Shown here: positions 57,963-61,268 of the stretch, in pieces
Position numbering within the stretch: the first letter of the stretch is position 1
How the letters are laid out: the number at the start of each line of letters is the position of its first letter
Notes under the pieces: generated by a model
The model's database searches: none
What the model was told of the DNA's origin: nothing
What the model saw: the letters and a program-made list of their open reading frames with translations, nothing else
Translations under genes and position numbers: made by a program
NCBI RefSeq assembly: GCF_937951745.1
Contig: NZ_CALFBQ010000003.1
Coordinates: 1-64,000, forward strand
Reading direction: 5' to 3'
Source of the DNA: an uncultured Chloroflexus sp.
GTDB taxonomy: Bacteria; Chloroflexota; Chloroflexia; Chloroflexales; Chloroflexaceae
Length of the DNA: 64,000 bases

Positions 57963-58937
57963 TTAGCCAGCAGCCGCCAACGCCTCGGCGCGGACCCGTT
58001 GGCGCCAGTAGGTCAAAACATCGTGCAGGGTCTCGGGCAGGGTATAGCGCGGCTGCCAGCCGGTGCGCGCGCGTAGGCGGCTCGCGTCGCACACGACGAG
58101 CGGAATATCGATCGGGCGCATCAATTCGGGGTTGAGCCGTACCTCGACCGGCACCGTGCATTCGGCCAAGAGCATATCGAGCAACTCGCGCACCATAACG
58201 GCCTTTCCCGACCCAACATTGTACACTGCACCGCTTTCACCATGTTCGGCTAGCAGCGCGTAGGCTGCCACCACATCGCGCACATCGGAAATATCGCGTT
58301 GCGCAGCAAGGTTGCCCACCTGCACGACCGGCGGTTGCAAACCGAGTTCGATGCGAGCGATTTGGCGGGCAAAGGCTGCGGTCACAAACCGCTCGTTTTG
58401 GCGCGGGCCGATATGGGTAAAGGGTCGCACCCGCACCAGATCAAGCCCATGGCTGTAGTAGTATTGCAAGGCCAACAGACTCTGGGCCGCTTTACTAACG
58501 CCGTAGGGGCTGGTTGGGCGCAGGGGGGTATTCTCATCGATTGGCAAATCTTCGGGATCGATCTTGCCGTACTCTTCGTTCGTACCGATCACCAACACCC
58601 GGGTAGCCATACGGTATTCAATCAAGGTTAGAAAGATGTGGAGCGCGCCGAGGGTATTGGCGGCCAAGGTGCCGGCTGGATCGCGGAATGACTCGGGTAC
58701 GAAAGGTTGGCCGGCCAGATGGAAGATGATATGTGGCCGCACCTGCACGATAGCGCGCATCGTCGCCTCGGCGTCGGCCAGATCGGCTTGCACCAATTGC
58801 ACCTTGCCGGCAAGTTCGGGCAGCGCGATTGCAGACGAGCGCGACAACCCCCATACCTCCCAGCGCCCGCTGGCTAGCAAATACTCGGCAAGATGGCCGC
58901 CGACAAAACCGTTAATTCCGGTGATCAGTACACGCAT
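57963..58937 (-). CDS. NAD-dependent epimerase/dehydratase (GDP-4-dehydro-6-deoxymannose reductase-like)
   Basis: MRVLITGINGFVGGHLAEYLL, NEEYGKIDPEDLPIDENTPLRPTSPYGVSKAAQ. Confidence 0.9.
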   Translation of the reverse strand: MRVLITGINGFVGGHLAEYLLASGRWEVWGLSRSSAIALPELAGKVQLVQADLADAEATMRAIVQVRPHIIFHLAGQPFVPESFRDPAGTLAANTLGALHIFLTLIEYRMATRVLVIGTNEEYGKIDPEDLPIDENTPLRPTSPYGVSKAAQSLLALQYYYSHGLDLVRVRPFTHIGPRQNERFVTAAFARQIARIELGLQPPVVQVGNLAAQRDISDVRDVVAAYALLAEHGESGAVYNVGSGKAVMVRELLDMLLAECTVPVEVRLNPELMRPIDIPLVVCDASRLRARTGWQPRYTLPETLHDVLTYWRQRVRAEALAAAG

Positions 58938-59000
58938 CATCGTGATGACTGCAATCAGCGCGATACGCTGAGATTATATCGCGATTGATTGTGCATTTTA

Positions 59001-59029
59001 TTGACAGTGATTGTGCAACATGCTACAAT
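59001..59029 (+). promoter_or_regulatory. sigma70-type promoter TTGACA-N17-TACAAT upstream of the carH-like gene, overlapped by ATTGTGCA repeats
   Basis: TTGACA 59001-59006, TACAAT 59024-59029; GATTGTGCA at 58987-58995 and 59009-59017. Confidence 0.6.
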
Positions 59030-59190
59030 ATTGACAACATTGTACCACGCTTAGCGCAAGGCTTGTGCAGCACTCAATGTATTTGGGGAACGCACACGTA
59101 ATTGTGAACCGTGGTACGATATAGATCGGGTGTAAAGATTATGCGCCATCGCTACAGCACAGCTTGAGCGCTGGGAAGGGTCGCGGAACG

Positions 59191-60138
59191 ATGGCACCGC
59201 AACATTTTCTCTCCCAATTTTCAGACAAGCCGCGATACAACACCAAGGCTGTCGCACAGGAGACAGGCGTGCCGGCCGACACCTTCCGCGCATGGGAACG
59301 CCGCTATGGCGTGCCGCGTCCACAGCGCACCGAAGGCGGCCACCGCCTCTACTCTGAGCGTGATATTGCCACGATTCGTTGGCTTCGTGATCGCACAGCG
59401 GAAGGATTGACCATCAGCCAAGCGATTGCGCTGATGATTGACGGGAGCGAGACGAGTCTCTCGTGGTTGAATACCGCTGTCGATACGGAACCGCACACGT
59501 GGGATCGGATGCAGGCGCGGATGATCAACGCGCTGACCGATTTTGACGCCACACGCGCTGAACAGATTCTGGGTGAGGCATTCGCGCTTTACCCGCTCGA
59601 AGATGTCTTCCTGAAGCTGATCCAGCCGGCCATGATCGAGATTGGCGAGCAGTGGCATGCTGGGCGTATTTCGGTGACCGCTGAACATTTTGCTACTCAG
59701 TTTATCCGGCGCAAGTTGTCGAGCCTGTTTAATACCTACAATGTGACTGAGGGCCGCGGGTTAGTAGTGGTAGGCTGCGCTCCGAGCGAACAGCATGATC
59801 TCGGCGCACTGATGCTAGCCGTCTTCCTTGTGCGGCACGGTTGGCAAGTCGTCTATCTTGGCCCGGAAGTGCCCGTGAAAGACCTGCTTGATGCTGTGCG
59901 CCACATTCAGCCTGATTTGGTCTGTTTGTCAGCTTCGACAACCGAAACCGCCACTCAACTGCTCGAAATTGGCCGCGCATTGCAACAACTGCCACCGCCA
60001 ACACCGCTCTTTGGCTATGGCGGTCGCGCGTTCAACCTCAACCCGATCTTGACACATAAGATGCCGGGCACATTCTTGGGGCGCGATGCACAGGAAGCGG
60101 TGGAAAACGTCGCGGCACTCCTGAGTCGCAGTCGCTAA
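59191..60138 (+). CDS. MerR-family regulator with B12-binding domain, CarH-like
   Basis: MerR HTH YNTKAVAQETGVPADTFRAWERRYGVPRPQRTEGGHRLY; W-x9-EH (WHAGRISVTAEH); B12 motif EQHDLG. Confidence 0.93.
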   Translation: MAPQHFLSQFSDKPRYNTKAVAQETGVPADTFRAWERRYGVPRPQRTEGGHRLYSERDIATIRWLRDRTAEGLTISQAIALMIDGSETSLSWLNTAVDTEPHTWDRMQARMINALTDFDATRAEQILGEAFALYPLEDVFLKLIQPAMIEIGEQWHAGRISVTAEHFATQFIRRKLSSLFNTYNVTEGRGLVVVGCAPSEQHDLGALMLAVFLVRHGWQVVYLGPEVPVKDLLDAVRHIQPDLVCLSASTTETATQLLEIGRALQQLPPPTPLFGYGGRAFNLNPILTHKMPGTFLGRDAQEAVENVAALLSRSR

Positions 60139-60155
60139 TGGTTTGCGAGGAGGGT

Positions 60156-60188
60156 AAGCGTGATTGGCGACCCAAACCAATCACGCTT
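60156..60188. terminator. 12-bp perfect inverted repeat AAGCGTGATTGG / CCAATCACGCTT after the carH-like gene
   Basis: Arms 60156-60167 and 60177-60188, 9-nt loop; no clear T-tract. Confidence 0.5.
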
Positions 60189-60197
60189 GATTCAGGC

Positions 60198-60226
60198 TTG
60201 CCTATACGCGCAAGATTGCGTATAGT
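60198..60226 (+). promoter_or_regulatory. candidate crtB promoter TTGCCT-N17-TATAGT with spacer-spanning palindrome CTATACGC-N8-GCGTATAG
   Basis: -35 60198-60203, -10 60221-60226; palindrome 60202-60209/60218-60225. Confidence 0.6.
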
Positions 60227-60263
60227 ACAAATAAGCGTGAATATGTGACAAAAGGAGTGCGGT

Positions 60264-61268
60264 GTGTCGCTGAATTCGATCTCGATTATCACGCGCGGGA
60301 ACGGATTGCCGGTCAGCCAAGCTTTGCCGGCTGATGAGCAGCTTGCCCAGCTCTTCCATCTCAGCGATCTGCCTGCCTCGTCGAACACTGATGAACTCCC
60401 GCCGCCACCGGTTCGTTCGCTGGCTGAGGCCTACGCAATCTGCGATCAGATTATCCGACGCCATTCCAAGAGTTTTTTCTTCAGCACGCAGTTTTTGCCG
60501 CCGCCGCAGCGCCGGGCAGTACGGGCATTGTACGCCTTTTGCCGCACGACCGATGATACGGTGGATATGGCAACCTCCGATCCAGCTCGTGCCCTCGCCG
60601 AATGGGTGCGAGTTGCGCGCCGTCCGTGCCTTGACACTTCGCATCCGGTGCTCTTGGCTTGGGCCGATACTTGCCAACGCTACAATCTCGCCCCTCATCT
60701 AATCGATGAGTTGTTGGCCGGTGTCGCGATGGATCTGACGATATCGCGCTATGCGACCTTTGCTGATCTCTGGCTCTATTGCTACCGGGTCGCTTCGGTC
60801 GTCGGGTTGTTGGTGATCGGGATTACTGGCGCTGCTCCCGACGCGACGCCATACGCGATTAAGTTGGGAGTGGCGTTGCAGTTGACAAATATTTTGCGCG
60901 ATATTGGTGAAGATGCCGCCCGCCAGCGGGTGTATCTGCCCGAAGATGAGTTGGCTCGCTTTGACCTGACCGCTGATGATATTTTGGCCCGTGTCTATGA
61001 TGAACGGTTTATCGCGTTAATGAAGTTTCAAATCGAACGCGCTCAGCGCTTGTACGACGAGAGTTGGCCCGGTATTGCGCTCTTGCCGGTTGAGGTGCGC
61101 TTTGCAGTTGCCGCTGCGGCGTGCGTGTACCGGGGTATCCTTGATAAAATCGTCGCCAACGGGTATGATTCGTATAGTCGCCGCGCTTATGTACCTTTTC
61201 GCGAAAAGGTGGCATGCTTGCCGCGCATTTGGTGGGATGTGCGGCGATTGGAGAAGCAGGCGCGTTGA
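60264..61268 (+). CDS. crtB: phytoene/squalene synthase family protein (phytoene synthase)
   Basis: HSKSFFFSTQFLPPPQRRAVRALYAFCRTTDDTVD; LTNILRDIGEDA; GTG start after AAAGGAG. Confidence 0.92.
   Translation: MSLNSISIITRGNGLPVSQALPADEQLAQLFHLSDLPASSNTDELPPPPVRSLAEAYAICDQIIRRHSKSFFFSTQFLPPPQRRAVRALYAFCRTTDDTVDMATSDPARALAEWVRVARRPCLDTSHPVLLAWADTCQRYNLAPHLIDELLAGVAMDLTISRYATFADLWLYCYRVASVVGLLVIGITGAAPDATPYAIKLGVALQLTNILRDIGEDAARQRVYLPEDELARFDLTADDILARVYDERFIALMKFQIERAQRLYDESWPGIALLPVEVRFAVAAAACVYRGILDKIVANGYDSYSRRAYVPFREKVACLPRIWWDVRRLEKQAR

Follow-up and report, generated by a model that had tools for sequence, protein, structure and literature searches.

The regulation of the scattered photosynthesis genes of Chloroflexus is described as unclear in a passage of one proteomic study (PMC9316378), and a stretch of 64,000 nucleotides from a Chloroflexus genome (here called the window; C. 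islandicus is among the named close relatives of its host, at 99% protein identity) contains a candidate regulator beside the phytoene synthase gene crtB. The questions raised by this locus are which promoter the regulator controls, and in response to what signal. It is very likely an ordinary auto-repressed, light-sensing CarH that represses its own promoter through a site at positions 58986-59018, while any control of crtB would probably be partial and exerted by read-through or indirectly. The conserved CarH and its precise, family-wide predicted operator together provide a named candidate regulator and a 33-bp probe; no paper treating CarH in Chloroflexus was found in the literature searched.

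The regulatory gene (carH, 59191-60138, + strand, ATG start) encodes a protein of 315 amino acids with MerR-type DNA-binding, four-helix and Rossmann B12-binding domains, for which the Pfam models MerR, B12-binding_2 and B12-binding all exceed their cut-offs. The closest solved structures by sequence (E values of 2.2e-35 to 2.7e-35) are those of CarH/LitR of Thermus thermophilus, a class I LitR (PDB 5c8d, 5c8e, 5c8f and 3whp) with the same domain order and predicted fold, but only about 29% structure-aligned identity. Residues W155, H156, E165, H166 and H202 align onto its ligand residues W131, H132, E141, H142 and H177, these equivalences being taken from the printed alignment with a 5-residue N-terminal tag assumed in chain 3whp_A. 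Both motifs that the first-pass annotation had reported are present, W-x9-EH within W155-H156...E165-H166 and ExHxxG as E200-x-H202-x-x-G205, and WH-x8-EH and ExHxxG are retained in all orthologues examined across the Chloroflexales. An AlphaFold2 monomer model (mean pLDDT 85.5) has T. thermophilus CarH chains as its best PDB matches (E of 1e-20 at full length), with a B12 domain that superimposes at about 2.3-2.6 Å rmsd in most chains; the orientation of the domains to one another is unreliable in the monomer model, and the whole-chain rmsd is 11-16 Å. Alignment to CarH structures, which had been proposed as a check, therefore gives the T. thermophilus protein as the best match in both sequence and fold, and domains, ligand residues and predicted fold agree with the earlier proposal that this anoxygenic phototroph has a B12-dependent photoreceptor and repressor of the CarH type. 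Judged from its sequence (domains, predicted fold, ligand residues and synteny), the product is a CarH/LitR-type MerR-B12 regulator, real and well conserved as a CarH of an anoxygenic phototroph, for which B12 binding and a response to light would be expected. A CobO/BtuR adenosyltransferase gene is encoded in the genome, so adenosylcobalamin (AdoCbl) is plausibly made from corrinoid.

Some features of the protein depart from the type. The top NCBIfam model is the equivalog NF052513 (TransRegCarH), scoring 187 bits, under the curated cut-off of 400, which is an annotation threshold for close equivalogs and does not define the broader family. The light-response signature of CarH and class I LitR proteins consists of GxxW, EH, GxxH and GxxxP (PMC11796333); the window protein has GEQW, EH and GPEVP, but unlike T. 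thermophilus CarH it reads SEQH (SxxH) at the GxxH position. The substituted motif and the score below cut-off, along with the TnnGCA outer repeats described below, count against the preferred explanation. AerR of purple phototrophs likewise provides B12-based light sensing in anoxygenic phototrophs, but acts through CrtJ, whereas the window protein carries its own MerR DNA-binding domain.

The linkage to crtB (60264-61268, + strand, GTG start; SQS_PSY family) is confirmed, and holds well beyond this genome: in Chloroflexales loci whose flanks are long enough, crtB almost always lies downstream of carH in the same orientation. The divergent neighbour of carH (57963-58940, - strand) encodes an NAD-dependent sugar epimerase/dehydratase. 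The CarH gene of T. thermophilus also adjoins crtB. CarH relatives (E <= 1e-60) are present in 39 of the 151 Chloroflexota genomes sampled. Four genomes of another family of the order (G030, G036, G039 and G027) possess a second MerR-B12 paralogue of about 40% identity besides the orthologue.

Published CarH operators consist of three or four tandem 11-bp repeats of the form nnnnTnnACAn located over promoter elements, with three repeats in Thermus, one of which contains the -35 element, and four in Bacillus (PMC9304148, PMC8156234). CarH also binds operators with non-consensus repeats (PMC9304148). The CarH and CarA proteins of Myxococcus xanthus and other myxobacteria, also MerR-B12 repressors, have tandem 11-bp repeats at a carotenoid promoter, with TTGACA inside one of them (PMC9304148), and control a large crt operon there. 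A candidate site of this kind, missed by the first-pass annotation, is present upstream of carH on the + strand (58986-59018), where three tandem 11-bp repeats in the nnnnTnnACAn register (58986-58996, 58997-59007 and 59008-59018) contain the cores TGTGCA (58990-58995), TTGACA (59001-59006) and TGTGCA (59012-59017), spaced 11 bp apart as TGTGCA-N5-TTGACA-N5-TGTGCA; positions 58990-59017 read TGTGCATTTTA TTGACAGTGAT TGTGCA. The central TTGACA is also the -35 element of the predicted carH promoter (59001-59029, + strand), followed after 17 bp by the -10 element TACAAT (59024-59029), so that, as in T. thermophilus, three repeats include the -35 element in one. This is the sole triple TnnRCA repeat in the window (0.11 expected) and the sole exact match to TGTGCA-N5-TTGACA-N5-TGTGCA in the genome.

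The same arrangement is exact in all eight Chloroflexus species and has at most one mismatch in other Chloroflexaceae loci with upstream sequence, except L082 with five; three loci from a different family in the order also match with one mismatch or none. More distant loci have four or five mismatches, with TTGACA mostly retained. The central repeat fits TnnACA, and the outer repeats, with G for A (TnnGCA, a difference from T. thermophilus), are pseudorepeats in the strict sense. These conserved operator-like repeats are likely to be the CarH operator, following the published plan. The first-pass annotation described an operator unlike known CarH sites because it examined the wrong promoter; the TnnRCA repeats of the carH promoter track the published plan closely. 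If the assignment is true, the CarH operator rule would, in a phototrophic lineage, also cover repeats of the TnnGCA type. Of the elements described here, it is the candidate operator that most merits testing.

By analogy with characterised CarH proteins, AdoCbl-bound CarH would assemble in the dark as a tetramer that binds the three 11-bp repeats at 58986-59018, covers its own -35 element and shuts off carH; in the light, the Co-C bond would be broken by photolysis and the tetramer would fall apart, and upon its release carH would be transcribed, together with any read-through into crtB. Overlapping the carH -10 element is a conserved inverted pair, TGCTACAAT-N9-ATTGTACCA (59021-59047, not assigned to a strand), the arms of which are kept, with a free 9-nt spacer, in seven of the eight Chloroflexus species and several Oscillochloris-type loci. 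Because the N of TGnTACAAT changes on one side independently of the other, the pair suggests either face-to-face extended -10 promoters, the other being directed toward the epimerase gene on the opposite strand, or an additional operator. The carH leader (59039-59120) contains an imperfect inverted repeat, ATTGTACCACGCTT / AACCGTGGTACGAT, with 14-nt arms 54 nt apart, that is partly kept in the genus.

The crtB gene appears to have a promoter of its own. The TTGCCT-N17-TATAGT reported earlier is indeed present at 60198-60226 on the + strand (TTGCCT 60198-60203, TATAGT 60221-60226), and most of the family retains it as TTGCC-N16-CGTATNNT, the two hexamers lying 17 bp apart. As a regulon signature, this pattern was rejected: the genome contains three matches to it, and the control gave just as many. 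The TnnRCA repeat search of the window found no tandem repeats at the crtB promoter, and a CarH site there is not supported in Chloroflexus. Between the two genes, beginning 17 nt past the carH stop codon, is a covarying hairpin (60155-60189, + strand) that the first-pass annotation also missed, stronger than the palindrome that it had reported nearby, with perfect 12-bp arms (60156-60167/60177-60188), terminator-like but without a U tract. Among the eight Chloroflexus species, nine of its 13 pairs have changed on both sides, and the proportion of cells that are paired is 92%, compared to 24-41% in slid controls. Two copies of the sequence TAAGCGTGA lie on either side of the crtB promoter, one in a hairpin arm (60155-60163) and the other downstream of the -10 element (60232-60240), and the downstream copy could be an alternative pairing partner of the other arm of the hairpin.

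Since a conserved promoter specific to crtB follows the hairpin, direct control of crtB by CarH is probably partial, through read-through, which is plausible because the hairpin lacks a U tract. Chloroflexus differs from T. thermophilus in being a phototroph and in the hairpin and additional promoter that stand between carH and crtB. The two genes may have formed an ancestral unit governed by the CarH operator, from which Chloroflexus has uncoupled crtB in part or in full. In a stricter form of the same explanation, without read-through, CarH regulates only itself and other targets, crtB being expressed constitutively from TTGCC-N16-CGTATNNT and its adjacency being a relic of the ancestral operon. 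The conserved separate promoter, the covarying hairpin and the lack of tandem repeats at crtB in the window search are as this version predicts, as are the clear terminators, each a hairpin plus U tract, 3' of carH in several other genera (e.g., L070, L071 and L069). The proteome of C. aurantiacus points in the same direction, as CrtB is among the few photosynthetic proteins that take no part in the increase seen in phototrophic growth (PMC9316378); this does not argue for a strong induction of crtB in that species or establish its control by light, and it also counts against the preferred explanation. However, carH-crtB synteny is held across the order, and read-through past the Chloroflexus hairpin is plausible; moreover, three Oscillochloris-type loci (L063, L066 and L068) have a short carH-crtB gap in which a separate crtB promoter was not found, which is consistent with a carH-crtB operon, and the gaps of L029 and L030 are also short, suggesting operon control there. 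Fully constitutive crtB is thus possible but doubtful.

Another proposal is that Chloroflexus CarH is a broader light regulator, acting on the promoters of carH itself, a sigma-70 family gene and an MFS transporter gene, with crtB and other pigment genes responding to light indirectly; this is unlikely as a whole. Sites of the form TNNNCA-TTGACA-TNNNCA with 11-bp spacing number about 80 in 41 genomes, compared to 24 and 46 with gaps of 4 or 6 bases, but many of the 80 come from carH itself, and TTTGCAAA directly ahead of TTGACA seems to be widespread among the promoters of these genomes, for which reasons the wider CarH regulon is left as a lead.

As for the signal, the one deviating signature motif, SxxH for GxxH, would suit a MerR-B12 protein that senses the supply of B12, or redox conditions, instead of light, but the key photoreceptor residues, including the adenosyl-packing Trp and the adjacent His, are invariant across the order, and the linkage is to a carotenoid gene, which makes such a sensor very unlikely.

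The first-pass annotation had CarH repress crtB directly in the dark by binding a palindrome, CTATACGC-N8-GCGTATAG, in the crtB promoter. The palindrome is present (60202-60225, not assigned to a strand) with perfect 8-bp arms, and it does cover the spacer between the -35 and -10 elements, but not exactly, as had been stated, for it overlaps the last two bases of the -35 and five of the six bases of the -10. Such an arrangement is only mildly unusual: among 125-nt sequences simulated with the same composition, about 2% contain an exact 8-bp inverted repeat with a spacer of 3-20, and the window has 73 such repeats. Arm complementarity in the eight Chloroflexus species is 8, 8, 7, 7, 5, 5, 4 and 3 of 8, so that the palindrome is intact only here and in one close relative, while other genera have 0-4 of 8, about two being expected by chance. 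The left arm, which is promoter spacer, is not conserved (3-5 of 8 complementary in four of the eight congeners), although the CarH proteins are 95-100% identical within the genus; conservation of the right arm GCGTATAG is explained by the -10 element within it. As an operator the palindrome was rejected by this phylogenetic footprinting, a lack of conservation at orthologous loci being an outcome that the first-pass annotation had itself named as refuting its model, and its near-matches in the genome number 17, compared to 27 for a reversed control pattern. Although MerR regulators classically bind palindromes within promoter spacers, characterised CarH proteins bind tandem direct repeats (PMC9304148, PMC8156234), and the inverted repeats proposed for CarA are themselves poorly conserved and placed unlike the palindrome of Chloroflexus. 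The palindrome is probably not the operator, and direct repression of crtB through it is highly improbable.

Repeats of the same general kind as those of the carH promoter were observed at two other promoters. Outside the window, TGTTCA-N5-TTGACA-N5-TGTGCA is found upstream of a sigma-70 family gene encoding regions 1.2-4 (L046:5745-5772; G000:C3:95744-95771), and the repeats are similar in all eight Chloroflexus species. The promoter of an MFS transporter gene (L047:5858-5912; G000:C69) has a tandem array of four to five 11-bp repeats (TGGACA, TGTGCA, TTGACA and TGTGAA), one of which contains the -35 element, and the core repeats are similar in the eight Chloroflexus species.
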